Below are positions 4,029 through 19,804 of a stretch of DNA of 64,000 bases, one piece after another. The DNA comes from Parashewanella tropica (lineage in GTDB: Bacteria > Pseudomonadota > Gammaproteobacteria > Enterobacterales > Shewanellaceae): the NCBI RefSeq assembly GCF_004358445.1, contig NZ_CP037951.1:2095501-2159500 (forward strand), read 5' to 3'. Position 1 is the first letter of the stretch; the number at the start of each line of letters is the position of its first letter. A program made the translations under genes and the position numbers. Under the pieces are notes generated by a model. It ran no database searches. It was not told the origin of the DNA and saw nothing but the letters and a program-made list of their open reading frames with translations.

Positions 4029-4463
4029 TTATTCAGCCTCATACTTTAATGCTTGCCGTTGTCCAAAGTAAATCAACAACCCACAAAATAGCCATACCAA
4101 TCCGATAAAGAGTATTCCCTCGCTGACTAGCTCAGGTTTTCTTATCCATAGCTGAATTGGTAGCAACCCTCGGATAATGCAAACGACAGCAATTGTCATA
4201 ACTACTGGCTTGAGTAATGGCAACCTTCTGACTATTCCAGCAGCAGATAAAATGTAAAGTCCAATGACGGCAAATATGCCTCCAGCGATAATTGCTGATA
4301 TTGGTGCTAGTAAGGTTCCAGCTTTTGCTGATTCAATAATTTGCTCTGGTGCCATTTGCATTGAGTAGCATTGCTCATCAAAAAATATGCAAGATGCATG
4401 TGCGATTGCAACTGAAAACGCAATGACTGCAACAAGAATCAATGAAAATCTGCCAAGCATCAC
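4029..4463 (-). CDS. four-helix membrane protein (144 aa)
   Basis: Last of three overlapping minus-strand genes. Hydrophobic helices lie at about residues 5-23, 52-75, 84-104 and 113-132. There are two cysteines near the N terminus (C25, C31). The start codon overlaps the upstream stop (ATGA). No family recognised. Confidence 0.6.
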   Translation of the reverse strand: MMLGRFSLILVAVIAFSVAIAHASCIFFDEQCYSMQMAPEQIIESAKAGTLLAPISAIIAGGIFAVIGLYILSAAGIVRRLPLLKPVVMTIAVVCIIRGLLPIQLWIRKPELVSEGILFIGLVWLFCGLLIYFGQRQALKYEAE

Positions 4464-5128
4464 TTTGCTTCATTCTCTACTATTGGTGGTAATGAATAAT
4501 AGATGTGAAAAGCCGTTCCAAATGAAAGTAATAATGCCAACACGATACCAGATGCATTGCTGGTTGTGGCATATCCTACTGAAGCACCTACTCCGAAATG
4601 ATAAAACCAAGGTAAGCCAACAATCTTATCTTTGGTTACATATCTTTCATAAACTCTCCCGACATGCTCCCAATTCACAATCGACACTAATAATGGAATT
4701 AACAGTGCGTACCCAAATAAATAGATGAGATTGTAACCTATAACATTTGTGTTGTAGCCAATCGCTGTAAGGTGGTTATCAATCAAATCTATACCGATGC
4801 CAGCGATAACGACTAATCCTAAAAACTTTAATAACCTCGCCCTTGCTGTATGTTTGCAGGGATATCTAGCTTCAGATTTAGCGAGCTCTGACATAAACTG
4901 TTCACGTTCTTTTAGCCTTGTAGAGGCTTGAGTCATTATCGAAAAACCAATAGCAGCGGCTATCAAAAAGGTACTAGAATTGATTCCATCAAACCAAATA
5001 TAGAATATTGCAGACATAACCACAAACGATTGAAGACAACCGATAAGCAAGCAGATGTATTTGTTTTTCTTATACAGTTTTGGGTAAAAATTTTCGCAAA
5101 ATTCATTAACTTTAGTCAGGGCGCTCAT
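4460..5128 (-). CDS. membrane protein (222 aa)
   Basis: Middle gene of a coupled trio; it overlaps both neighbours by 4 bp. Hydrophobic helices at about residues 24-45, 50-66, 99-116, 130-150 and 180-210 suggest an inner-membrane protein. It has a soluble loop rich in charged residues at about 68-95. Function unknown; the context is mobilisation and accessory genes. Confidence 0.6.
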   Translation of the reverse strand: MSALTKVNEFCENFYPKLYKKNKYICLLIGCLQSFVVMSAIFYIWFDGINSSTFLIAAAIGFSIMTQASTRLKEREQFMSELAKSEARYPCKHTARARLLKFLGLVVIAGIGIDLIDNHLTAIGYNTNVIGYNLIYLFGYALLIPLLVSIVNWEHVGRVYERYVTKDKIVGLPWFYHFGVGASVGYATTSNASGIVLALLLSFGTAFHIYYSLPPIVENEAK

Positions 5129-5268
5129 AAAAGATATTTACCTACAAACTGACCAAACTGCACTCCCAAGCCAAGCGCCATAATCAACAAGACGATTATA
5201 ATTAAAGTGATCACACCGCCGCGTTCAACAGGCTCCATTGATTCAAGCCATTTTTTAAAATCCGACAT
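5125..5268 (-). CDS. single-helix membrane peptide (47 aa)
   Basis: ATG at 5268 on the minus strand, with AAAGGA upstream. The product MSDFKKWLESMEPVERGGVI... has one strong membrane helix (about residues 18-36). Its TGA overlaps the ATG of the next gene (ATGA), so the three genes down to 4029 are very likely one operon. Confidence 0.55.
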   Translation of the reverse strand: MSDFKKWLESMEPVERGGVITLIIIVLLIMALGLGVQFGQFVGKYLL

Positions 5269-5539
5269 AAAATCCTTTTATTTATCAATTATTGAGTACT
5301 ATAAAAACTAGAACTACCTGATAATAAAGGAATAACTAGCGATGATAAAAAGAAACTTGTTACAGATTAGTTAAGTGGGTAAAAATCACACACCAGAGAA
5401 TATGAATATACAATTTCGTAACTAATTACCTTCTCAGTGCTTTAATTCAGCTTTCGTTCAAGTACCTGAAAGTTATAAGTAGTTATAATGCCAACCAATT
5501 ACATCTAAACTAAGTTCAAACTAGGATAGAGGATCTCAT

Positions 5540-6187
5540 TTGTCACAGCATGATTTTCGAACCAAGGCATTGGCTATCGCTGAGCAGCGCCTACCTGACT
5601 CAATAAACAAAGAGGATAGTCTTGTTGAGATCAGTGGTGAGAAAAAAACAACTATTAAGAACTGGCTCTATTCTGATAAACGTCCACCAAGAGGAAAGAG
5701 ACTAACTATTGCAGATCGATTTGGTGTTGATGCTTCTTACTTGTTTGATAATGCTCCCTACAGTTTACCTCTTACCAAATTCGACGAATCGCTCAATTGC
5801 TATTTTGTCCCTGAACTAAAGCTCTCACAAATTACATGCTTGTCTGAAACCGCCCCACTCCCAGTATCGGCGAGAGTCACCATAAGCCTACCGGCTTTCA
5901 TTTTAGAGAATATGCAATCGGTTGAGCAAACCTATTGCGTTGTTTCAAGTGGCATTGACTACGAACCTTTTATCACCGCAACCGACACCATTTTCTTTAA
6001 TACCACAGCAAAAAGGATTAAAGGCAATTTCTATATCTTGGTTGGTTCTGATACGTCCATTGTGAGAATGGAGAATGATGGTACGTTGAAGTGTAATCAA
6101 GGTAAATCAGTCACATTAGCCACTAATGACAAAATCATACCGATTGTCATCACCTTATCTTCAGGGTTTGCTAATCATGCTAGATAA
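5540..6187 (+). CDS. helix-turn-helix regulator (TTG start)
   Basis: 215 aa. TTG at 5540 is preceded by AGAGGA at 5528-5533. The N-terminal 75 residues contain an HTH-like pattern (EISGEKKTTIKNWLYSDKRP then GKRLTIADRFGVDASYLFD), in the style of XRE/phage repressors. The C-terminal half (about 95-215) is beta-rich and could be an S24-like or effector domain, though no clear Ser-Lys dyad is visible. It is divergent from the membrane trio at 5268 and may control it. It overlaps the next gene by 11 bp. Confidence 0.6.
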   Translation: MSQHDFRTKALAIAEQRLPDSINKEDSLVEISGEKKTTIKNWLYSDKRPPRGKRLTIADRFGVDASYLFDNAPYSLPLTKFDESLNCYFVPELKLSQITCLSETAPLPVSARVTISLPAFILENMQSVEQTYCVVSSGIDYEPFITATDTIFFNTTAKRIKGNFYILVGSDTSIVRMENDGTLKCNQGKSVTLATNDKIIPIVITLSSGFANHAR

Positions 6188-6824
6188 GCTCTTTGGTAAA
6201 ACTCAAGATGACCACTGGAAATTCATCTATCCAATAGCCTTCACTATTTTCTTAACCTCAACCACATTCTTCTTTTTTGATTACCGAACCATCGAAGTCT
6301 TTGGCTACCCATTACATTTATCAGTCGGGTTACTCTTTTTTCCTGTAACTTTCAGCTTGTCTAACCTAATGCAGTATCGTTACGGGGTATTGTTTGCCAA
6401 CACAGCCGTTAGATACGGGTTCTTGGGAGATCTTTTGTTTGTAATGCTGGCTTGGCTTCTAAGCCATATTGGAGAGCGACAAGATTACTTGAGTGTTTAT
6501 AATCAAATACCAACCATCATGGCAATGACCTTTTTTTTCGTTTGGCTCAGTAATGGTATTAATTTCAAACTATTCACAATAATGGACGGTAAGGTGCCGC
6601 CCTTCTTTAGCTTCTTTTCTGCTTGCCTAGTTGCAGAATGCAGTGTCAGTTTTATCTCAATCCCAATGATGATGTATAAGAACCACCTAAACTCAAATGA
6701 AATGCTCTCCATTGTGTTTATTGTTGGGTATAAGGTTTTGGCTACGTTGGTTCTGTCTACGCTTATTTCTGTAAAAATTGCATCGGGTGAGCATAGGAAG
6801 TTGGAGTGTTCGAGTAAGGCTTAA
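6177..6824 (+). CDS. six-helix membrane protein, weakly VUT/YhhQ-like
   Basis: The likely start is ATG 6177 inside the end of the regulator gene (MLDKLFGKTQDDHWKF), giving 215 aa; an upstream in-frame start at 6126 is less likely. About six hydrophobic helices are present. The segment FFPVTFSLSNLMQYRYG is reminiscent of the VUT (vitamin uptake / queuosine precursor) transporters, but the match is weak and the family's usual conserved acidic residue is not evident. Translational coupling suggests a job connected with the regulator. Confidence 0.5.
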   Translation: MLDKLFGKTQDDHWKFIYPIAFTIFLTSTTFFFFDYRTIEVFGYPLHLSVGLLFFPVTFSLSNLMQYRYGVLFANTAVRYGFLGDLLFVMLAWLLSHIGERQDYLSVYNQIPTIMAMTFFFVWLSNGINFKLFTIMDGKVPPFFSFFSACLVAECSVSFISIPMMMYKNHLNSNEMLSIVFIVGYKVLATLVLSTLISVKIASGEHRKLECSSKA

Positions 6825-7029
6825 TATCCTTCTAATTATCTATTGGCAGCAAAAATATTGATACATTGCTTAGGGCGTTTATTCTTAAATACTCAAACGT
6901 CACAAGCGATCAAGCGAGTGATTGGTAATATTCCGACACAAAAAAATCTAATTCTAAGTCTTTTGTAGAAGATTGTAGAAACTTACACCTATACTCGTTA
7001 AAGATATTTTAGGCCGGCAAGCTTTTCTG

Positions 7030-7560
7030 TCATTTGTTTTGCACAACTCCTTGTGTTTTAACAAAATTATTTTCATTGCCTACTCGAGTAGTCATAATGG
7101 CATAGGCAGCACCTTTCATACTGAAATAATTACCTCCAATCTGAATTTTGTCATCTGCTGACTGCTCTAATAATGCTGCTATCAAATTGAGGCTAGGTAC
7201 ATTGTCTTTTTGGTTTGCCTTATCTTTTGAATCCAAAAAATAACCAGTCTCAAATGGGATTGATATATTAAATTTAGTTCCTACAAATACGAGATCTTTA
7301 TAAATACATCCATCCAAAGGATTGCAATCTGGAGGCGTATCATTTACACCCTGATAAATTGCTTTGCAATCTTGTCCTCTTGAATTACATTGATAAGAAA
7401 ATTTCCCTCCTATATTTGGTGCTATAGAATTTGTATAAGCTATTTTTGAGCCGTCTATATTGCCTTGAATATACCAATCGCCTATTTGAACTGTAGGTAT
7501 TTCTGCCACTGCAGGGACTGTTAAAGCTGTAAGTAATAGTAGTGTTTTCATAAGAGTCAT
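7030..7560 (-). CDS. secreted/periplasmic protein (176 aa)
   Basis: A typical signal peptide (residues 1-19, MTLMKTLLLLTALTVPAVAE, cleavage after AVA) precedes a beta-rich domain. Four cysteines (CNSRGQDC ... DCNPLDGC) could form two disulfides. It stands alone, with about 200 bp of AT-rich intergenic DNA on each side. No family recognised. Confidence 0.6.
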   Translation of the reverse strand: MTLMKTLLLLTALTVPAVAEIPTVQIGDWYIQGNIDGSKIAYTNSIAPNIGGKFSYQCNSRGQDCKAIYQGVNDTPPDCNPLDGCIYKDLVFVGTKFNISIPFETGYFLDSKDKANQKDNVPSLNLIAALLEQSADDKIQIGGNYFSMKGAAYAIMTTRVGNENNFVKTQGVVQNK

Positions 7561-7746
7561 TCCTAATCAGCTAAGTCACTAATTATTTAATTTACTTGGG
7601 CTATTTCATATTTTAATTCACCTCTCTCATTAATTTGATTTATCTATCTGGTACCGAACACTTGCAACGAATTTTTCTTTAGAAAAGTAAGGTTAAGCTA
7701 CTAGAGTTAATGAATTTCGATCAAGATTAAAACCATATACCTAATA

Positions 7747-8448
7747 TTAGCTGAGCTTAAAAGCGGCTGAATACCCTCCATCAACCACAATATTCTGCCC
7801 AGTCATAAAGTCATTTTTCATCAACATTTCGATTACTGAGAATACATCTGCATCTTGTCCACAATCTCCCGTGAGGTATGTTTGGCTGTAATCAGGTAAT
7901 GTGCCTTTGTGTTTGGCTCTGATCATTGGGGTATCGATACTGGCTGGAGATATAGCGTTTACCTGTAATTGGGGTGCATTTTCAACTGCTGCAACCTTAG
8001 TTAGATTTATTACCGCCGCCTTTGCAGCGCTGTAAGCAGCCATATTTTTTGCACCGAAGTTGGCGGTGACGCTGGCGATATTAATGATCCGTCTTCTTTT
8101 TGTTTCACCTGCTTTCGCGAGATTGATTAAATTGGTTAATGAGTTGAATAATGGAGTGAAAACATCATTAAAAGACTCTTGATATTCATGCAATGTAAAC
8201 TCTGCCAACGACTTACGAACACCTGCTACGCCAGCACAGTTAATAGCGACATCAAAGTCCCCTATTTCTGAATATGCGCTTTCAGTATCAGGTGCTAACC
8301 TGAGATCGCACCTTTTCTGTTTGATTTCATTTGCTAAAATGTTATTTACTCTAATATCAAGTCCATAAACCTCGTGACCTAAAAGATGAAGCTGTTGAGC
8401 CGTATAAGAGCCTATGCCACTAGCATGTCCCGTAACAATTACTTTCAT
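7747..8448 (-). CDS. short-chain dehydrogenase/reductase (SDR)
   Basis: 233 aa from ATG 8448; an upstream in-frame start at 8502 adds an unlikely hydrophobic tail. Classical SDR features are present: the dinucleotide-binding TGHASGIG at residues 6-13, NCAG at 70-73, catalytic S126, and YSAAK with Y139 and K143. D31 at the end of the second strand favours NAD(H). The substrate is unknown. The gene stands alone and is probably chromosomal cargo rather than part of the mobility module. Confidence 0.85.
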   Translation of the reverse strand: MKVIVTGHASGIGSYTAQQLHLLGHEVYGLDIRVNNILANEIKQKRCDLRLAPDTESAYSEIGDFDVAINCAGVAGVRKSLAEFTLHEYQESFNDVFTPLFNSLTNLINLAKAGETKRRRIINIASVTANFGAKNMAAYSAAKAAVINLTKVAAVENAPQLQVNAISPASIDTPMIRAKHKGTLPDYSQTYLTGDCGQDADVFSVIEMLMKNDFMTGQNIVVDGGYSAAFKLS

Positions 8449-8808
8449 TTTAATGATGCACTCCGAATAACGGATATATATCAACAAGGTAGCACACTGC
8501 ACATAAAAGCATCAAAAATATGGCAGCAACGGTTACACAATTATTCAGCTTATGACTCTTTAGACTTTTCAATTACTGAAGTAGATCCACAAAGGTTTTC
8601 AGGTACAGACGCAGAATTGATCAAGCTATTACAGATACTTTATAGAAATCTGCAGCAGAAACCTCAAAAAATGATGGTTGGGGATAAGTTCTTTTTACGC
8701 TACCCAAACGGTGAGCAAACCTTGGTAGATTTTCATGAGCTGATGAACCAAGTACACAGGTGTAAGGACAGTGAGGAAGCCTTAGAAATTTTAAAAAACC
8801 TAATTTAA
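8425..8808 (+). CDS. hypothetical protein, possibly a gene fragment
   Basis: About 127 aa if started at ATG 8425; an alternative start at 8386 exists. The first residues overlap the SDR gene on the other strand, which makes the exact start uncertain. The part from about 8550 on (SGTDAELIKLLQILYRNLQQ ...) has natural protein composition and ends at TAA 8806. It may be the 3' part of an older gene cut by rearrangement. Family not recognised. Confidence 0.45.
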   Translation: MSRNNYFHFNDALRITDIYQQGSTLHIKASKIWQQRLHNYSAYDSLDFSITEVDPQRFSGTDAELIKLLQILYRNLQQKPQKMMVGDKFFLRYPNGEQTLVDFHELMNQVHRCKDSEEALEILKNLI

Positions 8809-9014
8809 CGACGTATTTTTCTATTCAATCTGAATTTACCCTGACAGAAAACCAATTAGCTTTTCTATGTAATTCAATAAGTAATCCTAATAATCACCTC
8901 ATTTTAACCAGAACACTACAAACCCGAGATGCAAGCCAGATTCTTTCGTGATACTTCTATTATAAATTTAGAAACACCACTACACATTCTTAGTCCAATT
9001 TGGAGATGTCTAAA

Positions 9015-9272
9015 ATGCGTACTGCCTACACTCAAGATATTATTGATGCTCTAGAGCAACTTAAAATTCAACGCCAACTACAACAAGAAGTTCCACAAGT
9101 TTGGTATACCAAAGCTGATTTATGTAAGCACTTTGGGATAACCTACAACACGCTAAAACGCTGGGAGAAGCACAAAAACTTCCCTTTGTTGGAGCTAAAA
9201 GACCTATGTACAGGCCGCTACGATATTCGGAAAATCGAGCGCTTTCTCCATAAAATGCAAATCAAGCAGTAA
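9015..9272 (+). CDS. small HTH DNA-binding protein (MerR/AlpA-like)
   Basis: About 85 aa. ATG 9015 has GGAG 9 bp upstream, better than the TTG at 9000. The segment YTKADLCKHFGITYNTLKRW is a winged-HTH pattern as in excisionase/AlpA/MerR proteins. It sits 39 bp upstream of the primase gene and probably belongs to the same replication/integration module (9015-13372). Confidence 0.65.
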   Translation: MRTAYTQDIIDALEQLKIQRQLQQEVPQVWYTKADLCKHFGITYNTLKRWEKHKNFPLLELKDLCTGRYDIRKIERFLHKMQIKQ

Positions 9273-9311
9273 CACTTACTTCCTCTAATCAGAAATGTGA
9301 AGGAGTAAGCC

Positions 9312-11966
9312 ATGCAGCCAGAGTTTCATGCCGAAGTGATGCGTCGATTTAAACGGGATTTCGATTTCAAAAATCAAAACGATAGCTTTCTACAACAAGG
9401 CATTTGCCCAAGATGTAATCATCGAGAACTCTATACCCACAAACATAAACCTTGGGTACTTCGATGCGGAAGACTCAACAACTGTGGCAACGAACTTCAT
9501 CTTAAAGAGGTTTACCCTGACTTATTTGACTCTTGGAGTGACCGATTTCCTAGTCAGCAAGATCCATCAACGGGTTTACTCACCAATCCCAATTCTGCGG
9601 CAGACGCTTACTTACAACTTGGTCGAGGTTTAAAAACTTCACAGATTAAGGGCTGGTATCAACAAGGTTCATATTATTGCGGCAAACGCCAAATTGGTAC
9701 AGCAACGATTCAGTTCACTTTAAGCAATGGTACAACTTGGGAGCGATTTATCGATAAGCCTGATCGCTTTGGGCAAATGAAAGCTTATTTCTCTGGTAAG
9801 TATCAAGGCTATTGGTGGCAGCCACCTAACTTCCATATTAATTCGCTTTCTGAAACCAATGAACTGTGGCTAACAGAAGGCATTTTTGATGCTTTATCTC
9901 TGCTTCAAATCGGTATATCTGCCGTGAGTTTGATGAGCTGTAATAATTTTCCTGAGCACGATCTTAGTGAACTTAGAAAGAAGCTATCAGACCGACAAGC
10001 ACCAACATTGGTATTTGCTTTTGATAGAGGTAAAGCTGGTGAATCTTTTGCTTTGAAATTTATTAAACGAGCTAAACAACTCGGTTGGCAAGCTACAGCA
10101 GCGCTTCCTCCTGCAAGTAAAGCCAAGCTGGATTGGAATGACTTACTGCAACGGGAACGCTTGAGTTTAAATGATTTACAAGACTATCGATATAACGGGC
10201 TGCTGCTAACGGCTCCTGATGCAAAGACCAAAGGCATTTTGATGTATCAGAAAACAGGACAACATGAGTTTCCATTCGAATTCCGGCTTTCAATGTATTG
10301 GTTTAAGTTTCACTCTGACAAATTCAATAAGATAGAAGAAACACAAGACGAGCCAACTCAAGCAATACAAGAAGCATCTAGCGTTCAATTACTTTGCCTT
10401 TGCTATCCTCACGCGCTGTATTTTCAAGACAGCCCTAATGCTGATGAATGCTGGTATTACTTTCAAATCGATTTCCCACATGGGCTTACAGTTAAGAAAA
10501 CCTTTACTGGCGCACAGATCAGTTCTAGCAATGAATTTAAAAAACGTTTATCCAGCATTGGTGGCGGTGCCATTTTTGAAGGTTCGACGCTCCAACTCAA
10601 TCGTTGGTTTAGAGAGCACCTTTACAGCATCAAACAAGTTAAAGTCATCGATTTTGTAGGTTACAGCAAAGAACACAAATCCTATGTATTTAATAATATT
10701 GCTGTGCAAAACGGTGTGCTTTATCAAATCAATGAAGAAGACTATTTTGAGGTCAAACAGCATTGCATCAAAAGCCTTAATCCAGCACAAATCAAACCCA
10801 ATTATGATCTCACCCAATTTAAACCTGACTTCTTTCATTACTTCTATGAGGCGTTCTCAGCCAAAGGCGTTGTGATCCTTGCTTACTGGCTGGGCAGTTA
10901 CTTTGCAGAGCAGTATCGTGACATTTTTGATTCATACCCTTTTCTTGAGTTAATCGGTGAACCCGGTTCTGGTAAATCAACATTACTGGAATTCTTGTGG
11001 AAATTATCAGGTCGAACGAACTACGAAGGTTTTGATCCTGTTAAATCCACACCTGCCGGAATCAACCGTAATCTAGCTCAAGTGGCTAATTTACCAGTTG
11101 TATTTATTGAAGCCGATCATGGTGATAACGCAGCCCGTAATAGCTTTGATTGGGATCAATTCAAGACGGCTTACAATGGTAGACCTATCCGTTCAACGGG
11201 TATCAAGAACAACCAAAACGATACTAAAGAGCCTTTGTTTCGTGGCGCTTTGGTCATTAGTCAAAACAAAAGTATTGTCGCTGAAGAAGCCACATTAGAA
11301 CGGATCATTCATATCTTCAATAGCCGCAGTAATCACACTTCACACTCTCGCGCAGCAATCGATAAATTGAAACAATACTCAATAGATGAGCTTTCTGGCT
11401 TCATGATTAAAGCAATCAGTAAAGAACAAGAAATACTGACTCTCCTTAAAAGTCGACAACTGCAGCACGAGCAATGGCTAAAGCAAGAACCTCAAATCAG
11501 AAAAGAGCGTATCAGTCTGAATCATGGTCAGATATGTTCACTGGTTGAGGCATTGGCTTTTGTCGTCGACATAACTCCTAGTCAAATTGCTCTTGCTCAC
11601 GAACTCATTAAATCTATGGCGATTGAACGTGAGCATACCTGTGGCACAGATAACCCAATTATTCAAGAATTTTGGGAAGTGTATGAATTTTTAGAAGGCG
11701 ATAACGAGAAGATAGTTAATCACTCAAGAGATCCAAATTACATTGCTATCAACCTCAACCAATTTGCCGAAGAAGCAACTGTCAGAAAGCAGAAACTTCC
11801 TCTATTGAATGAACTAAAAGCCTTATTGAAGGATTGTCGAACTCATAAGTTCGTTGGTCGAAAGCCAGTAAACAGTGCCGTCAATGACAGATTAAACAAG
11901 TCTCATCCTTCCATGACTAAACCTTCAACCGTTAAATGTTGGGTTTTCCAGTCAACTTCAAGATAA
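9312..11966 (+). CDS. primase-helicase (zinc ribbon, Toprim, DUF927-like ATPase)
   Basis: 884 aa. In order: a zinc ribbon (CPRCNH ... CGRLNNCGN, about residues 32-60); a Toprim domain (LWLTEGIFDALSLLQIG with catalytic E about 186, and FAFDRGKAG about 238-246); and a helicase-like ATPase with Walker A GEPGSGKST (about 550-558) and Walker B VVFIEAD (about 595-601). This layout is typical of replication proteins of integrative elements and satellite phages. It primes and unwinds DNA, presumably for replication of the excised element. It is followed after 12 bp by an excisionase-like gene and then the integrase. Confidence 0.8.
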   Translation: MQPEFHAEVMRRFKRDFDFKNQNDSFLQQGICPRCNHRELYTHKHKPWVLRCGRLNNCGNELHLKEVYPDLFDSWSDRFPSQQDPSTGLLTNPNSAADAYLQLGRGLKTSQIKGWYQQGSYYCGKRQIGTATIQFTLSNGTTWERFIDKPDRFGQMKAYFSGKYQGYWWQPPNFHINSLSETNELWLTEGIFDALSLLQIGISAVSLMSCNNFPEHDLSELRKKLSDRQAPTLVFAFDRGKAGESFALKFIKRAKQLGWQATAALPPASKAKLDWNDLLQRERLSLNDLQDYRYNGLLLTAPDAKTKGILMYQKTGQHEFPFEFRLSMYWFKFHSDKFNKIEETQDEPTQAIQEASSVQLLCLCYPHALYFQDSPNADECWYYFQIDFPHGLTVKKTFTGAQISSSNEFKKRLSSIGGGAIFEGSTLQLNRWFREHLYSIKQVKVIDFVGYSKEHKSYVFNNIAVQNGVLYQINEEDYFEVKQHCIKSLNPAQIKPNYDLTQFKPDFFHYFYEAFSAKGVVILAYWLGSYFAEQYRDIFDSYPFLELIGEPGSGKSTLLEFLWKLSGRTNYEGFDPVKSTPAGINRNLAQVANLPVVFIEADHGDNAARNSFDWDQFKTAYNGRPIRSTGIKNNQNDTKEPLFRGALVISQNKSIVAEEATLERIIHIFNSRSNHTSHSRAAIDKLKQYSIDELSGFMIKAISKEQEILTLLKSRQLQHEQWLKQEPQIRKERISLNHGQICSLVEALAFVVDITPSQIALAHELIKSMAIEREHTCGTDNPIIQEFWEVYEFLEGDNEKIVNHSRDPNYIAINLNQFAEEATVRKQKLPLLNELKALLKDCRTHKFVGRKPVNSAVNDRLNKSHPSMTKPSTVKCWVFQSTSR

Positions 11967-11978
11967 TAGGAGCTAACC

Positions 11979-12185
11979 ATGAATAAGTTAATGCGTGCGA
12001 GTAATTGGGCAAAGCGTGAATTTTGTAAAGACTCTATTCCTGATGGTATGACATTAAAACGTTGGGTTGAACGTGGCGTAATTAAAGGTCGGATTGTAGA
12101 TGGTAAAACGTATGTTTTTGATAGTGAACATGCTGGGCTGGATACCGACGTTTCGAAAGTAGTTAAGAATTTATTGAGTGCATAA
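11979..12185 (+). CDS. excisionase-like HTH protein
   Basis: 68 aa. ANWAKREFCKDSIPDGMTLKRW followed by ERGVIKGRIVDGKTYVF is the winged-helix pattern of lambda Xis-like directionality factors. Its TAA overlaps the integrase ATG (TAATGG at 12183), the standard Xis-Int coupling. It likely bends att DNA to favour excision. Confidence 0.75.
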   Translation: MNKLMRASNWAKREFCKDSIPDGMTLKRWVERGVIKGRIVDGKTYVFDSEHAGLDTDVSKVVKNLLSA

Positions 12186-13372
12186 TGGCTGCAAGACCTA
12201 GAAAAAAGAAAAATATCAATTTACCTGAGCACGTCTATTATGACCCTCGCCGGGGCTTTTATAGGATCAGGTTAATTGATGGACGGTTTCGTTCTCTTGG
12301 CAATGAGCGAGAGGTGGCTATATCTATTGCAAAAGAATATAACCGTATCGCTCGTCCCAAAGTAGCTATTGCAGTAGAAAGTCTACTTGAATCTGGTTAT
12401 ATGCCAGATGAAAAACCATTTAGCACTTATGTAGATTCACTGCTAACTAGAATTTTGCACGAAGAGCAACCATCAGCCCGTGTTGCCCAAGCAATGAGAA
12501 ACGACGCAAAGAGAACGAAAGAGTTTTTCAAAAATATTCCGGGAGGTGATATCACGCTGCATCATGTGAATGACTATTTGAATGAGCTTCACCCCGATGC
12601 CACAGCTGAGGTAACGAATCGTAAGGTTGGTTGGCTAAAGAAGATATTTTCCTACGCTATTGACGAAAGCTTAATGGATTCAAACCCTGCGACATTGAAG
12701 AAAACCAAACGTCTAGACGCTAAGAAGAGGCAACGTCTCAAACCAGAATGGTATCAAGAGATCCACGCAGCCGCCCCACTCTGGTTACAAACGGCAATGG
12801 ACTTATCATTACAAACGACACATGCCAGATTAGAGATCTCTCGAATCCGCTACAACATCAAAGACTCAAGCAACAAAATCTGTGGCTGCTTATGGTTCAA
12901 AGAACCCGAATTTACCCCACAAGGAAAAATCTACGGTACTTTGTATATTCATCGTCAGAAAGTGGCAAAGAAAGAAGCCGCTAATGTAGCCATTCCTATT
13001 GGTGAAAGCCTTAAAGCAATCATTGAACGTAGCAGAGATAACCTGATAAGTAATTACGTTGTGCACCGTTTACCAGAGAAATGTCCAAGCGTACTTGGCA
13101 AAGATGTATCTCATTTAACCCAACTCGCACCAAACTACATCAATCGGACTTTCTCGAAAGTACGTGACGAAGTCGGCTGCTGTAATCATCTACCCAAAGA
13201 ACAACGCCCAACATTCCACGAAATACGTGCCCTCGCCGCCCACCTTCTAGGAAGGCAAGGTATCGACCCACAATCACGCATGGCACACACCGATGCCAAG
13301 AGCACAAAGATTTATATGAAGAACCATATCGAATGGGTTGAAGTACCTTATGCTGAGGTTAAGATTAGCTGA
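12185..13372 (+). CDS. lambda-type tyrosine recombinase (integrase)
   Basis: 395 aa. The N terminus (MAARPRKKKNINLPEHVYYD ... GFYRIR) matches the lambda Int arm-binding domain. The catalytic residues are R215 (HARLE), H345 and R348 (HEIR), H368 (AHTD) and the nucleophile Y377 (KIYMK). It is not an integron integrase: it is longer, has the arm-binding domain, and lacks the IntI-type insertion. Together with the excisionase-like and primase genes it defines an integrative element whose right end must lie near 13.4 kb, directly against the attI-like block at 13412. The other end was not identified. Confidence 0.85.
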   Translation: MAARPRKKKNINLPEHVYYDPRRGFYRIRLIDGRFRSLGNEREVAISIAKEYNRIARPKVAIAVESLLESGYMPDEKPFSTYVDSLLTRILHEEQPSARVAQAMRNDAKRTKEFFKNIPGGDITLHHVNDYLNELHPDATAEVTNRKVGWLKKIFSYAIDESLMDSNPATLKKTKRLDAKKRQRLKPEWYQEIHAAAPLWLQTAMDLSLQTTHARLEISRIRYNIKDSSNKICGCLWFKEPEFTPQGKIYGTLYIHRQKVAKKEAANVAIPIGESLKAIIERSRDNLISNYVVHRLPEKCPSVLGKDVSHLTQLAPNYINRTFSKVRDEVGCCNHLPKEQRPTFHEIRALAAHLLGRQGIDPQSRMAHTDAKSTKIYMKNHIEWVEVPYAEVKIS

Positions 13373-13411: not shown

Positions 13412-13624
13412 CATAGCTTTATTGTGTTGAATCTAGGAATTTCCTCTTTTTCACAAAAAAGGTTTTTTTCCCTATTTCACTAAAAACAGCAGGTCAATTA
13501 TTAGGCTAACAAATCAAAACCTATTGATTTTAAGTAGTTAAGCAGATATTTTCCTGCGATATTAAATTTTAATTAGCAGGCGGTAGCGTTTCCAATTAAA
13601 TAAAGACTTTCCGCATGATAAGCT
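13412..13624 (+). repeat. attI-like block, copy 1
   Basis: This 213-bp non-coding stretch is homologous to 19238-19442. Shared parts include CATAGCTTT, GGAATTT..CCT, TTCAC..AAAA, ACCTATTGAT, AGATATTTT and TTAGCAGGCGGTAGCG, followed by an imperfect hairpin ending CCGC..AATAAGCT. Both copies directly precede the first cassette of an array, so I infer a head site. The core here is degenerate (CTTTTAAT instead of a GTTRRRY core). The block begins 40 bp after the integrase stop codon. Confidence 0.5.
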
Positions 13625-13646
13625 TTTAATCTCTCAAGGAAGATTC

Positions 13647-14001: not shown

Positions 14002-14103
14002 GCTTACAAGGCATTCAACAGGACAAATACTGTTTGGCTTTTGTTACTACGCTCCAAAATTTTAGCCTAACGCCCATTTGCCTGTTAACTGGGCAATAGG
14101 CGC
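14002..14103 (+). repeat. degenerate attC (B-like)
   Basis: Has the internal sequence of type B (GCATTCAACAGGACAAATAC ... CCTGTTAACTGGGC), but both cores are mutated: GCTTACAAG on the left and GCAATAGGC in place of GTTRRRY on the right. Probably inactive. Confidence 0.7.
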
Positions 14104-14140: not shown

Positions 14141-15127
14141 TTGGCTCGATTAAATTTTAAAGAAATAGATGCTTCAACAATCAAAGGAAATGATTCAGAC
14201 CAATTCGAGAAATTTAGTAAGCAGTTTTTCGAGCACGCCTTAAAAATGGAAGTTATCAGTGGCCCAAGCAGAGGACCTGATGGAGGAGTAGACTTAAGTG
14301 TCTTAGATAAGGGCGCTAATGAAAGACTCTTGGTAAGTTGTAAGCATTATGCTCATTCAGGTAAGTCTGTCGGGAGAGCGGATGAAGAAGATATATTAGA
14401 TAGGCTCGCTGAGCATAATTGTGATGTTTTCATAGGATTCTATTCGACTATAGCCTCCTCTGGTCTTGAGCAAAAACTAGAACGCTTAAAGAGAAACAAG
14501 AAAATAAAGTACAAAATTTACGACAATGAAAGCATTGAAGCTGTCCTTCTAGATAGTGTATCTGGCTTTCATATTGCAAAAAGATTTTTCCCTGATTCCA
14601 TAAAAAATGTCTGGCCACAAATTATTAGCTTGAGCACAGCATATTCATTAGACGATGCAACTGAAGTTGACTCATATAAATGGGTTGTTTTGGATCAATT
14701 TAAGTCTTCCTCTACTATTCCCTATGCTTCTGCAGCGGAAGACGCTGTGACAATTGCAAATGAAGCTGCAACTGAAGAAATACACCAGCCAATGTTTCTT
14801 GCTGCATGGAAAGACGCTGTTCGCTTATATCCTAAATATTTCAGTATCCCTAAAGAGGGAATTGATGAAGCTATTCACTGGCGTGACCTACCTCCTAAGT
14901 GGGAAGCTAAAATACATCTTGACGAATTGAGGCCAAACCCTAGGTGGACTTTACTTGCTATCTGGAGCCTAATAGATCGAAACAAGGTAAGAGAGATTCT
15001 AAAAGAACTCAGACATGACGCATCACAGCAAGACCTTGATCTAATGAGCTTCCAGTGGCTTGCAGAATCAACGGCTACTGAGCGTAGAGACATTTTGACT
15101 AGATTATTCGCCTATTATTGCGTGTAA
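14141..15127 (+). CDS. Mrr-like restriction endonuclease-fold protein
   Basis: 328 aa, TTG start at 14141. The N-terminal 115 residues fit the Mrr-type PD-(D/E)xK nuclease: FEKFSKQFF with E23, GPDGGVD (D51), and VSCKHY (K68) as the D-x(n)-(E/Q/C)xK catalytic core. The C-terminal 200 residues are helical and not recognised. Mrr proteins cut modified or foreign DNA, so an antiviral role is plausible but not shown. It occupies its own cassette, bounded by the degenerate attC and the attC at 15130. Confidence 0.7.
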   Translation: MARLNFKEIDASTIKGNDSDQFEKFSKQFFEHALKMEVISGPSRGPDGGVDLSVLDKGANERLLVSCKHYAHSGKSVGRADEEDILDRLAEHNCDVFIGFYSTIASSGLEQKLERLKRNKKIKYKIYDNESIEAVLLDSVSGFHIAKRFFPDSIKNVWPQIISLSTAYSLDDATEVDSYKWVVLDQFKSSSTIPYASAAEDAVTIANEAATEEIHQPMFLAAWKDAVRLYPKYFSIPKEGIDEAIHWRDLPPKWEAKIHLDELRPNPRWTLLAIWSLIDRNKVREILKELRHDASQQDLDLMSFQWLAESTATERRDILTRLFAYYCV

Positions 15128-15129
15128 TC

Positions 15130-15234
15130 GCCTAACAAATAAGGCATTAAATCGGAAAAATACTTGTTGGCTTTTTTCCGCTACGCTACAAAATTATAGC
15201 CAACAACCATTTTCCGCTTAATGCGGCGTTAGAT
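15130..15234 (+). repeat. attC type D
   Basis: Left core GCCTAAC, right core GTTAGAT. The left arm carries a few extra bases (AACAAATAAGGCATTAAATC) compared with other type D sites. Closes the Mrr-like cassette. Confidence 0.85.
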
Positions 15235-15261
15235 TTATCTCAGGTTTGGTGCAATTAGATA

Positions 15262-16953
15262 ATGAATATATATGATTTAAGTGGTTTAAAGCTATTGTTT
15301 GATCAACCTAGTTCTGATGATGATTTACACTTGTGGTATCAACAAACAGATGTTTGTGATTTTTTGTCTTCTGATGAAAGTGATGAATATGTACTTCTAT
15401 ATGCCGCATTACCTCACGTGTTTCTCCACGCAATATTGTTACCTGAAACTCATGCACAAAAAGAAAATTTCGAAAACTTGATGCGATGGAGTGGTAACCC
15501 ATATTCTTCTTGGGGCGTTTCATGTTCTTCAGAAGATGTGACTATAGAAAACCCTTTATCTAGTTTTGGAGACAAATCTTTAACTTATGGCGAACAGATT
15601 ATATTTGCACGTTCCTTCGAAGGGATAAATGGCGGTGAAACTTACTACGAAATGAATCAAAAAATTGCTCACTCTTTAGAGCTTCATTATGTCGCTGAAC
15701 GAATGTCTTGGTGTAAGTTAGACTCTCATGGGGAAATTGATGAAGTCATTAAAATAGTTAAGATCGATCAAGATAATAAAGAAGTTGGCACAGTTATTTG
15801 TGCGAAAAAAGATGTCTTAGGAGAGTATGCCGGAATAGAAGACCATAAACTATTTCGAATGTTTGATTTTACTCGCTATAAAACAGGTGATTTTAACGGC
15901 TGGGGATCTGAAAGAAATCCCATAGAAATAAATAGCAATAATATTTTTGGCAGCCTTAATGTGGTTAAAGGCATCGGAAGTTATTCTAGAGGGTTTCAAA
16001 TATCAGATATAGCTACCCCTAAAGATTTGATAATTTCCAATGTCTGGGGAAATTCTGAAGAGGAAAAAGAGTATTGTAGCTACATAGCACAAGACTGGAA
16101 AAACAAAGAAATAAAAGAGATTTCGTGTAATCCAAGTTGTTTGGCAAATTACTTCACCGAATCGGATTTGCCTTTTGAAATAACACCCGCATTTTTTAAG
16201 CCAGAAGTCTTGTTAAAATATAAAACCGATCGGGATAGATATACTCTTAACAGTCGCAGTGTTTATTGTCGAGGTGCATGGGAATTAAAGACATTTGATG
16301 TCAATTCTGCTGGTCAAGTTCATACATACTTAATATACCTTAGTCACTTACCATATGAGGAGCAATTGCATTGGAAGCAATACAATGAACCCCCAAAAGC
16401 ACCAATTTCAAAGCGTGCCATGGAAAATGATATTGAGGGTAAGTGGAGTAGTGATTATGACGCTTTATTAAACCTTAAAGATAAGCTAGAAAAATTGAAT
16501 ACTAAGGGAGTTCCTTGGTGGAAACTCAGAGATAAAAAAGCCCCTGATAAAGTTCACTACCCCTATACTAGTTCTCGGGATGAATGGGCTGAAGAAATAT
16601 TAAATTTAGACCAGCTGATTGTCGAAGGCTTAGAGGAAAAATGGCTTAGGAGAAAAGCAAAGGAGTTAAATTTAAATCCTGATGCTAGATTACGAGCATT
16701 AAAGTTAATTGAAGTAATACTAGTTGGTGCTGGGTTTGAAACCGAACATGCTCGCGAAATAATGACACCGTTTCATGTGGTTCACAACGCACGATCGATC
16801 TTGAAGGGGCACACTTTAGGGCAGGAAGCAGAAGAACTTAGAAAGAATGCGATAACTGATTATGGTAGTTATAAAAGTCACTACGAAAAAATATGCTCTG
16901 ATTGTGATGAATCTTTAGAGATCATCACCAAGGCACTTAGTGATAAAGCATGA
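15262..16953 (+). CDS. unknown 563-aa cassette protein
   Basis: By far the longest cassette product here. No signal peptide or membrane helices. Acidic N terminus (QPSSDDDLHLWYQ), then mixed alpha/beta, and a more helical and basic C-terminal 170 residues (KWSSDYDALLNLKDKLEKLN, WLRRKAKELNLNPDARL). I see no Walker motif, nuclease core or other catalytic signature. It lies between the Mrr-like and FRG cassettes, so a defence-related role is possible but only by neighbourhood. Confidence 0.65.
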   Translation: MNIYDLSGLKLLFDQPSSDDDLHLWYQQTDVCDFLSSDESDEYVLLYAALPHVFLHAILLPETHAQKENFENLMRWSGNPYSSWGVSCSSEDVTIENPLSSFGDKSLTYGEQIIFARSFEGINGGETYYEMNQKIAHSLELHYVAERMSWCKLDSHGEIDEVIKIVKIDQDNKEVGTVICAKKDVLGEYAGIEDHKLFRMFDFTRYKTGDFNGWGSERNPIEINSNNIFGSLNVVKGIGSYSRGFQISDIATPKDLIISNVWGNSEEEKEYCSYIAQDWKNKEIKEISCNPSCLANYFTESDLPFEITPAFFKPEVLLKYKTDRDRYTLNSRSVYCRGAWELKTFDVNSAGQVHTYLIYLSHLPYEEQLHWKQYNEPPKAPISKRAMENDIEGKWSSDYDALLNLKDKLEKLNTKGVPWWKLRDKKAPDKVHYPYTSSRDEWAEEILNLDQLIVEGLEEKWLRRKAKELNLNPDARLRALKLIEVILVGAGFETEHAREIMTPFHVVHNARSILKGHTLGQEAEELRKNAITDYGSYKSHYEKICSDCDESLEIITKALSDKA

Positions 16954-16963
16954 TAAGTATCAA

Positions 16964-17052
16964 GTTACTCAAACGGACACTAAGCAGTTTCCTAGCGCTC
17001 GTTCCTCGCAATTTTAGCTAACAATTTTTCGCCGTTTAGTAAGACGTTGCGC
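16964..17052 (+). repeat. divergent attC-like site
   Basis: Inverted arms (CAAACGG / CCGTTTAG, CTAAGC) around a conserved CAATTTTAGC segment resemble attC, but the left core is unclear and the right core is GTTGCGC, one base off consensus. It separates two long cassettes. Confidence 0.55.
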
Positions 17053-17075
17053 AGAAAAAATAGAGATTAGAGTAT

Positions 17076-17981
17076 ATGGAAAAAGACGTATCAAAACTGT
17101 CAGAACTAATCGACTTCATAAAGGAAATTGGAGATACAACTGATAACCTCCTAGTGTACAGAGGTGAGAAAAAGGATTATGAAGAAACTGCTTTAGTTCC
17201 TTTTGTATATCGAAAGAATTATATAAGTAAAGAAGATATCATTTATAGAGAAAGCCAAAGGTTTAACGACGATAGCTTTCATCAAGATAAAACGACATTT
17301 GACCGATTAAGTAGGATTCAGCATTATTCTGCACCAACTAGACTTATAGATGTTAGCGAAGATTTGTTAAGCGCTGTGTACTTCGCTATTGCAGAAAAAA
17401 AAGAGCTTGAAACTGATGCGCTTATTTATATTTTTGAAATAAAAAAGAATGAGATAAAGTACTACGATTCGGACTCTGTAAGCGTAATCTCAAACCTTTC
17501 CAAGATCCCTCTCAATGGTTCTGGTCTAAAGTCCAAGGAAAAACTTGCTAAGTCTGCGTCTTCTAACAAGACAGATACTGATAAATTCAACAATGAGAAA
17601 TGTGTTCAATATTTACTCCATGAAATCAGAAGTGAAAAGCCTCAATTTTTACCATTAATAGATCCAGAAGACATTACTTCTGTAAAATTTGTTCTACCTA
17701 AATTCACTAGTAGTAGAATAAAATCACAGAAAGGCGCTTTTTTACTTTTCGGGTTAAATCCTGACAACCACGCAAAACCAATAAAAATTATAAAGTCGAA
17801 TAAACTCATAGAATCAGATAATAGAATCTCTCATCCAATCGTTGAGATCCATATTGCAAAACTGAAAGCACATAGCATCAAAGATATGCAAACCGAGCTT
17901 AAAAATCTAGGTATCAAAAAATCTTATATTTACCCTGAGATAGATAAAGTTTCAGAACAGTTAAATGAAGATTATCAGTAA
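17076..17981 (+). CDS. FRG-domain protein
   Basis: 301 aa. The FRG signature is clear: VYRGEKKDY (residues 27-35) and RIQHYSAPTRLIDVSEDLLS with AVYFA (about 86-110). FRG-domain proteins are found in bacterial defence islands, and their biochemical activity is not settled. The C-terminal half (PLIDPEDITSVKFVLPKF ...) matches the common extension of such proteins. It is a cassette of unit 1, ending at the short attC 17991. Confidence 0.8.
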   Translation: MEKDVSKLSELIDFIKEIGDTTDNLLVYRGEKKDYEETALVPFVYRKNYISKEDIIYRESQRFNDDSFHQDKTTFDRLSRIQHYSAPTRLIDVSEDLLSAVYFAIAEKKELETDALIYIFEIKKNEIKYYDSDSVSVISNLSKIPLNGSGLKSKEKLAKSASSNKTDTDKFNNEKCVQYLLHEIRSEKPQFLPLIDPEDITSVKFVLPKFTSSRIKSQKGAFLLFGLNPDNHAKPIKIIKSNKLIESDNRISHPIVEIHIAKLKAHSIKDMQTELKNLGIKKSYIYPEIDKVSEQLNEDYQ

Positions 17982-17990
17982 CCCTGAAGC

Positions 17991-18044
17991 ACATAATAAT
18001 AAATCCTGGTGAGGCCTATGGCGCACCTGATTTAGGCGTTAACT
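17991..18044 (+). repeat. attC type S (short), slightly degenerate
   Basis: 54 bp. Left core ACATAAT, inner arms CCTGGTGAGGCC/GGCGCACCTG, right core GTTAACT. Closes the FRG cassette. Confidence 0.8.
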
Positions 18045-18076
18045 GTTCAAGAAAACCTCGGAGTAGTATTTAGAAC

Positions 18077-18682
18077 ATGGAGTCAGTTGCTTTAATAAAG
18101 ACAATAGCAATTATAGGTTTGTACGCATTATTGATATTGCTGCTGGTTGTTTCATTTTTCAGTCATCGAAAAATGAAGTCTTGGGAATACATAATTTTAT
18201 CTGTTTCTTTATTGGTATGTGCGTCAGTTACTCTCGTGACACTTCATAAGATGCAAATGATGTCGGATGATATCATTTCAACGAATTATGACTTGAAGTT
18301 GAACCAGTTAGAAAAATCTCATGATCAAATAAAAATGAATCAAGGTGTTATTAAGCGCCTCATTGAAAATGGAGAAACGGAAGAGAAAATAATCTATGAA
18401 ATCGAGTCTTTAAAAGAATTGCTAGATAAGAAAGAAACTGAAGATCTAGGATATTTCAAATCTTGGTTATTCATATTTGAAGTAATTAGTGCGCTATTTG
18501 CAATTCCGCTTTCGGTAAACTTCTTTGTCCATGGTGTCACTACACGTCACCAAACGACGGATATTTATGAAGTCCCGACGGAAATTTACTCTAGGTTAGG
18601 TAAACTTGAAAGCAGCGTGGCAATTTTAACTGCTGTAAATGCTATTCTTATTGTCGTGATAGTAGTCAGCATGATCAGTTAA
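18077..18682 (+). CDS. cassette membrane protein with coiled coil (201 aa)
   Basis: Helices at about residues 7-29 and 37-54, then a polar heptad-like stretch (LKLNQLEKSHDQIKMNQGVI ... EKIIYEIESLKELLDKKETE, about 75-120), then further helices at about 129-150 and 180-200. This layout suggests an inner-membrane protein with a cytoplasmic or periplasmic coiled coil. Its TAA lies inside the left core of the next attC (CAGTTAACAAGG). Confidence 0.6.
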   Translation: MESVALIKTIAIIGLYALLILLLVVSFFSHRKMKSWEYIILSVSLLVCASVTLVTLHKMQMMSDDIISTNYDLKLNQLEKSHDQIKMNQGVIKRLIENGETEEKIIYEIESLKELLDKKETEDLGYFKSWLFIFEVISALFAIPLSVNFFVHGVTTRHQTTDIYEVPTEIYSRLGKLESSVAILTAVNAILIVVIVVSMIS

Positions 18683-18703
18683 CAAGGCCTTGAAGTCTGA
18701 TTT
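18677..18703 (+). repeat. attC left half, cut by an IS remnant
   Basis: AGTTAACAAGGCCTTGAAG and a few more bases of a left attC arm, then the left end of the IS3-family element begins. The break is at the same arm position as in the six intact IS insertions. Confidence 0.6.
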
Positions 18704-18771
18704 TGTAGTTGCCCCACTTCAGTGGACACTTCCTTATCATTATAAGGAAGTGGTTATGCCTAGATATACAC
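18704..18771 (+). mobile_element. IS3-family element remnant (left 68 bp)
   Basis: Nearly identical to the left end of the six full copies (TGTAGTTGCCCCACTT ... ATGCCTAGATATACA), with C instead of T at one base, then diverges abruptly. The rest has been deleted. Confidence 0.85.
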
Positions 18772-18775
18772 CCTG

Positions 18776-19061
18776 CACTATTTCTTTTAACCTGCCTTCA
18801 TGCGTAACTTCATAAAGCATAATCCATAAAAAAACTCCAAAATTAACTTGCTAAAATTTATGGTTCATCCAAAATTACTCGCAAAACTATGGTGTAACTT
18901 ATTGATAAATATACACTGCGAATTCAGTAAATTCAGCGTTTTCGGTAAATTTTTTAGAACGTAAAACCATTGTTTTTAGTTAAAATACAATAGGTTAACT
19001 AGCGATAAAGCATTATCTTGACATGGTGGGGTCGGTGGTTCGAATCCACTCGGTTGTACCA
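18776..19061 (+). repeat. unit-end repeat, copy 1
   Basis: Homologous to about 60299-60575. Shared stretches include CTATTTC, AAAATTA(A/G)CTTGCT, ACTCGCAAAACTATGG, GAATTCAGTAAATTCAG, GTTAACTAGC and the tRNA-like end. Both copies follow an IS3-family left-end remnant and close a cassette array. Confidence 0.75.
18987..19061 (+). pseudogene. degenerate tRNA-Val(GAC), intact 3' end
   Basis: The 3' half is tRNA-like: anticodon loop TTGACAT (GAC), stem GGTGG, T arm GGTGGTTCGAATCCACT, acceptor CGGTTGT and ACCA. The 5' half (ACAATAG, D arm) no longer pairs properly, and the variable loop is one base short. It fits an att site left by an island targeting the 3' end of tRNA-Val(GAC) rather than a working tRNA. 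Confidence 0.65.
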
Positions 19062-19104
19062 TATCTTATTGAAATATAATACATTTAACATCAGCTCTCG
19101 GTAA

Positions 19105-19153
19105 GGATTCACTAACTTTAGTTTTGCGCATATTTTGCGAGTGAATGAATCCC
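19105..19153. other. imperfect inverted repeat
   Basis: GGATTCACT on the left pairs with AGTGAATgaATCC on the right around the TTTTGCGC repeats. It could be a terminator stem or part of an att region; no U-run follows. Confidence 0.3.
19122..19140. repeat. TTTTGCGC repeats, 11-bp spacing
   Basis: TTTTGCGC at 19122-19129 and TTTTGCGA at 19133-19140, 61 bp after the tRNA-like end. The same octamer (as GCGCAAAA, three copies, also 11 bp apart) follows the second tRNA-like copy at 60632. They may be recombinase arm sites. Confidence 0.4.
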
Positions 19154-19218
19154 CCAGCCTTAGCCAAATCGTTGGATTAACAACCACCTGATTTTTAAAC
19201 AAAAAATAAAAAATAGCA

Positions 19219-19234
19219 CTGTATATTCATACAG
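19219..19234. promoter_or_regulatory. LexA (SOS) box
   Basis: CTGTATATTCATACAG is a perfect CTGT-N8-ACAG match. In integrons the intI promoter usually carries a LexA box just upstream of attI on the far side from the cassettes. That is exactly this position, but no intI follows on the minus strand. Confidence 0.65.
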
Positions 19235-19237
19235 CTC

Positions 19238-19442
19238 CATAGCTTTCCTCCTTTCTACAAGAAAAAAGGAATTTTTCCTTCTTTCACGCAAAAGCACTTG
19301 AGTAAATTTCAAGCAAATTGATTACAAACCTATTGATCTTATTACCTTATACAGATATTTTACTTAGATGTTAAATTTAAATTAGCAGGCGGTAGCGTGT
19401 CCGTTGAAAGAAGGACTTTTTCCGCCTAATAAGCTGTTATAA
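19238..19442 (+). repeat. attI-like block, copy 2
   Basis: Homologous to 13412-13624. It ends in an imperfect hairpin (AGGCGG ... CCGCCT) followed by AATAAGCT and GTTATAA at 19436-19442, which equals the right cores of two attC sites in this array (44694, 57310). The first cassette gene starts 6 bp later. With the LexA box on its left it looks like the head site of an integron that has lost intI. Confidence 0.55.
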
Positions 19443-19447
19443 GGGCT

Positions 19448-19702
19448 TTGATGGATACTGAACTCTTAAACATTATAGTTCAAATTTTTGCTGGTTCATG
19501 GCTAGTATTTTTTCCAAATCATTTAATGTTTGTTATTCGTAAATATCAGTTGTTCCTTTTTAAATACACACCTTTGGGTGTATTGGTATTCAAAACCGAA
19601 AAAGAAGCTCAAAATCCAATATTTAATCGAAGGGCTGTTCGTGCAATTGGTTTTTTCATTTACCTCGGCGCAATAGTTACAATAACTAAGGTAATTGCAT
19701 AG
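19448..19702 (+). CDS. cassette membrane protein (84 aa), unit 2 cassette 1
   Basis: TTG at 19448 or ATG 19451. A short amphipathic start, a hydrophobic helix at about residues 7-25, another at 34-47, and a C-terminal helix at 66-83. Directly follows the attI-like core. Family unknown. Confidence 0.5.
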   Translation: MMDTELLNIIVQIFAGSWLVFFPNHLMFVIRKYQLFLFKYTPLGVLVFKTEKEAQNPIFNRRAVRAIGFFIYLGAIVTITKVIA

Positions 19703-19706
19703 CCAC

Positions 19707-19804
19707 TTATAACAAGGCATTCAACAGGACGCAAAATCGTTGGCTTTGCGCCTGCGTCGCAAATTATAGCCAACAATTTTCCGCCCGTTAATGCGGCGTT
19801 ATGT
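19707..19804 (+). repeat. attC type A
   Basis: First site of unit 2. Left core TTATAAC, right core GTTATGT. Arms GGCATTCAAC/GTTAATGCGGC and the inner pair CGTTGGC/GCCAACAA show the usual two-stem attC layout. Confidence 0.9.

Follow-up and report, generated by a model that had tools for sequence, protein, structure and literature searches.

A predicted anti-phage protein with Avs3-like and HEPN-like domains encoded in a partly decayed integron array of Parashewanella tropica

Three successive gene cassettes of Parashewanella tropica raise the question of whether they make up one anti-phage unit, and of what is done by the large protein encoded between the other two. The window (the whole stretch of 64,000 nucleotides that was analyzed, positions 2,095,501 to 2,159,500 of contig NZ_CP037951.1, from a complete 4.22-Mb genome) contains three real open reading frames (ORFs), all on the + strand, at 14141-15127 (ORF1), 15262-16953 (ORF2) and 17076-17981 (ORF3), which a sequence-only reading had described as a small defense cluster consisting of an Mrr-type nuclease, a 563-amino acid (aa) protein with no recognized domain and an FRG-domain protein. 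The lack of a recognized domain in the ORF2 protein is borne out by Pfam, PADLOC and NCBIfam, none of which has a match at E <= 1, and its 22 relatives have single matches only in Pfam, at E 0.17 or worse. ORF2 is predicted, with slightly better than even confidence, to be a one-gene anti-phage protein with an Avs3-like N-terminal domain and a C-terminal HEPN ribonuclease (RNase) domain, whose gene moves partly as a cassette.

ORF2 belongs to a new family that is conserved and sparse. One scan of GTDB genomes identified 22 related loci with 25-88% identity, in Pseudomonadota, Chloroflexi, one cyanobacterium, Planctomycetes and bins labelled Nitrospira, Desulfaltia and Clostridiaceae, and seven plasmid records match as well, two of them from Pseudomonas aeruginosa with 32% identity over 99% of the protein. 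Three of 369 genomes of the class match ORF2, the source genome included, one relative being split by a stop and one partial; a relative is present in none of the four other genomes of the genus, and Escherichia coli genomes gave no DNA match in the 'distant' search mode. The ratio of nonsynonymous to synonymous substitution rates (dN/dS) is 0.145 in comparison with locus L014 and 0.095 in comparison with locus L002. The 22 related loci and the low dN/dS show that ORF2 is a conserved gene rather than a frame that is open by chance. Sequence searches of the PDB with ORF2 (E <= 10) returned chance matches only.

Structure prediction, which the sequence-only reading had proposed for this protein, yielded an AlphaFold2 model of the full length (pLDDT 85.9) with two recognizable ends, one Avs3-like and one HEPN-like. 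The structural comparison (VIA-align 2) aligns residues 4-252 (15271-16017, + strand) with residues 1836-2076 of the Avs3 chain 8dgc_B at Z 11.3, with 185 aligned residues, 3.7 Å and 12% identity, and the remaining VIA rows for this region are at Z <= 2.5. Foldseek ranks both 8dgc Avs3 chains first (probabilities 0.94 and 0.85), with low whole-chain TM scores. For comparison of sequence profiles, an Avs3 C-terminal profile was built from the Avs3a found in one of the 369 genomes of the class, the identity of which was checked against SeAvs3 in the PDB (1,371 bits), and ten C-termini of its plasmid relatives. The N-terminal profile of the ORF2 family, with plasmid relatives added, matches it with an hhalign score of 31.2 (E 0.0014) over 149 columns by default, or over 224 columns (6-250 with 7-264) under a looser alignment setting. 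With columns shuffled 200 times on the Avs3 side, the mean score is 13.2 (standard deviation 2.2, maximum 20.7), the maximum in 200 shuffles of the ORF2-family side is 22.9, and control profiles of the middle part, the HEPN part and the Avs3 repeat region score 11.7-19.2. Since the fold match and the profile match cover the same region in the same orientation, residues 4-252 are likely to be homologous to the C-terminal domain of Avs3.

The other end of the protein, residues ~430-563 (16549-16950, + strand), is a helical bundle in the models, and its best VIA rows are HEPN toxins (5yep at Z 6.8 and HepT at Z 6.3, with 2hsb at Z 6.0). The case for HEPN is carried by the motif R511-x5-H517 (16792-16812, + strand), of which R and H are present in every one of 24 rows, and likewise in all 25 of alignment A3. 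The spacing is x5 in 23 of the 24 rows and x4 in one, the motif is kept in relatives down to 23-26% identity, and in the P. aeruginosa copy it reads RNEIRGH. A second model, of residues 254-563, has pLDDT 86.0 and pTM 0.81. In the models, six helices follow from residue 439, with a numbering that is not matched one-to-one to the HEPN review; R511 ends the helix 494-514, H517 lies in a loop and the helix 521-534 comes next. According to the accessible text of PMC3710099, the Rx4-6H motif of HEPN domains sits at a helix end and the loop that follows. With motif and bundle both present, the C-terminal domain is predicted to function as a HEPN RNase. By the sequence comparisons made, the family is not Avs3 and has no match to any HEPN family of the libraries used; the four HEPN systems named in the accessible part of the DefensePredictor paper (PMC13092281) lie outside this comparison.

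Between the two ends is a conserved middle domain, residues ~254-429 (16021-16548, + strand; boundaries chosen here). It has no convincing fold match, the best Foldseek E value for residues 254-563 being 0.15 and the VIA rows covering the helical end. A combination of an Avs3-like domain, this middle domain and HEPN was not found described in the literature searched, most subscription papers being outside it. At locus L026 (G284:C5:125959-126489), a 589-aa frame matches positions 329-503 of the family profile only (E 2.3e-6); to judge by this match, an N-terminal domain of another kind may be joined to the middle domain and the beginning of the HEPN part.

Transfer of the gene between distant bacteria takes place, at least partly, in the form of an integron cassette. 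Sites with the attC core pattern adjoin the family gene in 7 of 51 flanks, compared with 4 of 3,836 windows drawn at random from these loci (and not limited to intergenic DNA). Six of 26 loci are flanked in this way: the window itself and those of an Osedax symbiont, a Chromatiales bin, Shewanella, Billgrantia and Vreelandella. The Vreelandella gene (L020) has an attC site on both sides; in the window, the site upstream of ORF2 is intact and the downstream one decayed. The core pattern is the measure counted, a first attC detector having found no site in any locus, the known site included, with 2 of 486 controls positive, and a second having found eight sites (three upstream, five downstream) in 26 loci, compared with 10 of 476 controls, while missing several sites and accepting weak hairpins.

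In the mechanism judged most probable, the ORF2 protein would be inactive at rest, probably as a dimer, its HEPN RNase held by the middle domain. A phage product would bind the Avs3-like domain, the conserved middle domain would relay the signal, and the HEPN pair would cut RNA and arrest the cell before phage release, i.e., abortive infection. Precedents for both parts exist in the accessible portions of two papers: Avs1-4 recognize terminase, portal or another protein of phage origin (PMC12931631), and Tha is a single HEPN protein activated by a phage protein (PMC11087260). A broader proposal, offered tentatively and with more doubt than the prediction for ORF2 itself, is that the family represents a minimal class of innate sensor, in which the C-terminal module of Avs3, without the STAND ATPase and repeats, is joined to a new middle domain and a HEPN RNase, such that ~560 residues would read a phage component and kill the infected cell, and which spreads between phyla partly as a cassette. 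If so, a recognition module would be common to a very large STAND sensor and a small HEPN protein that acts alone, and the role of that part of Avs3 could be studied separately from the ATPase machinery. That integrons store anti-phage genes is already known (from works cited in the accessible text of PMC12444791); to that view would be added a concrete gene that is invisible to PADLOC 2.0 and Pfam.

The genes beside ORF2 relatives bear on this proposal. When neighbors at 20 loci were scanned singly, 6 of 30 matched PADLOC at E <= 1e-3, namely an AriA/GajA-like ATPase, ZorB, AbiEii, a weak SspB, a CBASS 2TM effector and a mad3/LmuB-like ATPase. In aggregate, 101 genes within three places of the family gene match 269 PADLOC models and 99 genes at least seven places away match 19, a difference tempered by redundant models, which inflate the count of 269, and by short contigs, which give no distal genes. 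The CBASS 2TM effector gene (6.7e-81) is directly upstream of the Vreelandella copy, which has two neighbor clusters in common with the Pseudoalteromonas locus L003; these we take to be the two cyclase and two effector matches of the aggregate scan. After the P. aeruginosa copy come SAVED, nucleotidyltransferase, ThiF and Mov34 genes, read here as CBASS, and the P. syringae copy is preceded by gmtX of a gamma-mobile-trio (GMT) element. Defense genes beside some relatives, together with the Avs3-like and HEPN ends, make the 563-aa protein a good candidate for a new defense component, as the sequence-only reading had proposed. That reading had also set homologs outside defense contexts against such a role, and on this point the result is divided: the six neighbors named above match defense models, and the other 24 of 30 have no PADLOC match at E <= 1e-3.

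These 24 neighbors, and the limits on the aggregate count, weigh against the prediction of an anti-phage protein, as do several results on the protein itself. The HH probability of the Avs3 match is just 17%, and with full alignments it is 3% (score 29.1, p 0.013); with five diverged rows removed, the score is 24.1, just over the shuffle maximum. The Foldseek E values for the two Avs3 chains (0.078 and 0.14) are not significant alone, and the pTM of the full-length model is 0.57, so that the relative placing of its domains is uncertain. In the HEPN part, the residue after R is mostly S, and the one usual in HEPN families is N, D or H (accessible text of PMC3710099); fumarase also appears among the VIA rows at Z 6.3, and because of such helical-bundle noise, fold comparison alone cannot decide for HEPN. 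A profile comparison with the HEPN domain of ApeA, for which two ApeA-like rows only were used, gave no sequence link (score 13.5, compared with a mean of 12.0 and a maximum of 18.0 in 100 shuffles). Finally, no statement was found in the literature searched of which part of Avs3 touches terminase, so that to name the large terminase, or another conserved protein of the phage, as the trigger is a guess by analogy, less likely right than wrong.

The two outer genes are plausibly defense genes of known kinds, judging by their families. ORF1 (328 aa, TTG start) has an Mrr-like nuclease domain at residues 18-95 (Pfam Mrr_cat, E 1.7e-5, 25.3 bits, cut-off 21) with DGGVD and SCKH motifs, and its C-terminal half is without a family match; its five plasmid relatives align over 43-52% of the query, every one in the N-terminal nuclease half. 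ORF3 (301 aa) matches Pfam FRG at E 6.5e-14 and, over its own full length (residues 3-301), the PADLOC candidate PDC-S15 at E 2.5e-79, and it has relatives on 273 plasmid records. FRG is described in the accessible text of PMC9503650 as an ADP-ribosyltransferase-superfamily domain and possible NADase effector. Both assignments agree with the sequence-only reading, including the statement that the two families are associated with defense.

That reading had gone further and taken the three genes for one cluster, which might correspond to a functional unit of nuclease, regulator or sensor, and FRG effector. The genes follow one another on a single strand, and a putative promoter in the attI-like stretch upstream might serve them all, and yet a single unit is highly improbable: tblastn (E <= 1e-3) with the products of the Mrr gene, the FRG gene and ORF4, the next ORF downstream, found no relative in the flanks of the 25 other family loci (up to 10 kb per side, several contigs being much shorter), separate attC sites, intact or decayed, divide the genes, and the FRG family stands by itself on its plasmid records, as far as the matches listed indicate. 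The Mrr and FRG genes are thus probably independent defense cassettes and not partners of ORF2. Alternatively to an anti-phage role, the HEPN RNase of ORF2 might respond to general stress or act as a cassette-stabilizing toxin, with the N-terminal domain sensing a host or metabolic signal. This is unlikely, but it draws on the proposal that HEPN domains of integron cassettes induce dormancy by cutting RNA (accessible text of PMC3710099), and on the 24 of 30 scanned neighbors that are not defense genes. What counts against it is the resemblance of the N-terminal domain to part of a phage sensor, the far greater number of PADLOC models matched by near than by distal genes, and the CBASS-type and GMT genes beside some copies. 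A toxin-antitoxin pair was considered and rejected; no partner cluster is common to more than two loci, except one broad cluster (c2). Because no antitoxin-like partner recurs, the protein would have to be self-regulated whether it responds to phage or to stress.

The division of labor within the protein can also be drawn differently, the Avs3-like domain being a structural or oligomerization module and the middle domain reading a trigger such as a nucleotide or nucleic acid. Of 34 invariant columns in alignment A1, 25 are at residues 291-420 of the middle domain, among them the run P364-K372, a polar stretch that would suit a ligand-binding or catalytic site, and no account of what the C-terminal domain of Avs3 does was found in the literature searched. 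Against this reading, the partial row L018 prevents any column before residue 172 from counting as invariant, and the columns also fit recognition by the Avs3-like domain, in that a phage-reading surface should vary more than a signal-transmitting core. Sensing by the middle domain is considered improbable, and recognition by the Avs3-like domain is retained in the prediction for ORF2.

The ORF2 protein can be compared with several known systems. Avs3 (AVAST type 3 STAND sensor; SeAvs3, PDB 8dgc) has the fold of residues 4-252 in its C-terminal domain, whereas in ORF2 this domain is N-terminal, the effector is HEPN, the STAND ATPase, repeat domain and N-terminal nuclease are missing, and the length is 563 residues instead of ~2,090. 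Because the full Avs3a architecture is not matched (the P. tropica genome has no match to the Avs3a model PDLC02167, of 2,090 positions), ORF2 is not an Avs3 but would have one domain in common with it. Tha, a 301-aa, tail-activated protein of Staphylococcus aureus prophages (accessible text of PMC11087260), resembles ORF2 in being a single protein with a C-terminal HEPN domain and a phage-protein trigger, as is proposed for ORF2, and differs in lacking the Avs3-like and middle domains and in its prophage location, the ORF2 family being without a match in phage records. Origin of ORF2 as a phage gene was rejected: in addition to the phage records, IMG/VR, searched with one protein and so to the depth of close relatives only, gave no confirmed relative, and PHROGs gave only E 0.0098. 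ApeA (HEPN_Apea, PF18739) is comparable in size (its frames in the class have 465-506 aa) and ends in an R-x4-H HEPN domain, but PF18739 matches none of 22 family members at E <= 10. The integron cassette HEPN family of PDB 3jrt is likewise encoded on cassettes, but was not among the PDB sequence matches of ORF2 at E <= 10, and the accessible text of PMC3710099 mentions no Avs3-like domain in it. The likeness to PDC-S15, a PADLOC FRG candidate, concerns ORF3 only.

ORF1 to ORF3 are located in a partly decayed integron array. On its + strand the window has 55 matches to TAACAA...GCGTTA, and the - strand has none; the 54 distinct strict attC ends have a median spacing of 494 bp, and 10 of 53 intervals exceed 1 kb, some intervals containing insertion sequences. 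Given this median and the few intervals over 1 kb, the remark that large cassettes are uncommon was a fair one. By the spacing of the repeats (1134 and 1818), the cassette of ORF1 measures ~1.1 kb and that of ORF2 ~1.8 kb; that of ORF3 is ~1 kb by its sequence. The longest interval (15231-19801) is explained by degenerate attC sites inside it. In unit 1, the part of the array that holds the three genes, the strict pattern is fitted solely by the site between ORF1 and ORF2 (15131-15237), which has both pattern and hairpin (dG -20.2 folded as DNA). The site before ORF1 (14003-14100) has a 69% match to the attC repeat family D12 and fails the strict pattern, with GGGCAATAGGC in place of the GCGTTA of intact sites; that between ORF2 and ORF3 (16957-17057) has a 60% match to repeat family D1, and that after ORF3 (17982-18045) is a short attC type by eye, both of these failing both attC site patterns. 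All four sites are on the + strand, as is ORF4 (18077-18682, 201 aa) in the next cassette, which has no family above cut-off in Pfam, PADLOC or NCBIfam.

The only integron integrase above the family cut-off in the genome is encoded outside this array, by intI at C1:1726525-1727472 (466.9 bits, cut-off 265), ~380 kb away. Two arrays with the same attC types are thus present, one at window 13440-58144 and the other at G000:C1:1707720-1727472, with intI in the latter only; one attC pattern has 27 sites in the window and 18 beside the integrase. At the head of unit 1, a putative attI-like stretch (13440-13628, + strand) has 74% identity over 197 positions to window 19244-19439, which in turn is 72% identical to L033:4282-4466, a stretch between intI and the first cassette; no direct match of 13440-13628 to L033 is among the matches listed. 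By this resemblance, unit 1 seems to be the start of an old array fragment, and the two attI-like stretches give the impression that an integron was split, with duplication of its head.

Other features of the window and of related loci may be noted. Two Chloroflexi bins have a seven-gene cluster (c5-c11) near the family gene (L007:13883-20352 and L008:3327-9893), the last gene of which (L008:8583-9893) has no PADLOC match, and the first of these bins has a second, contig-cut copy of the family gene 9 kb from the first (L007:2-865 and L007:10001-11698). In the window, seven 300-nt stretches between 23830 and 60010 (at 24318, 29321, 42785, 45583, 52271, 55087 and 59708) are 100% identical, with inverted copies in addition, and probably represent a single insertion sequence that is present several times in the array; a remnant of this element, 68 bp long, is located at ~18704-18771, downstream of ORF4. 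Adjoining the array, window 2607-13372 looks like a mobilizable element, with relaxase-like ORFs and an 884-aa primase-like ORF (both by eye) and a tyrosine-recombinase-like ORF (below the Pfam cut-off, E 2.1e-5). Between two array pieces, 19018-19061 resembles by eye the 3' part of a tRNA gene, perhaps the trace of a former attachment site; ARAGORN predicts no tRNA anywhere in the window. The sole Rfam match in the window at gathering score is the HPnc0260 antisense RNA at 60537-60698 (- strand, 63.9 bits).

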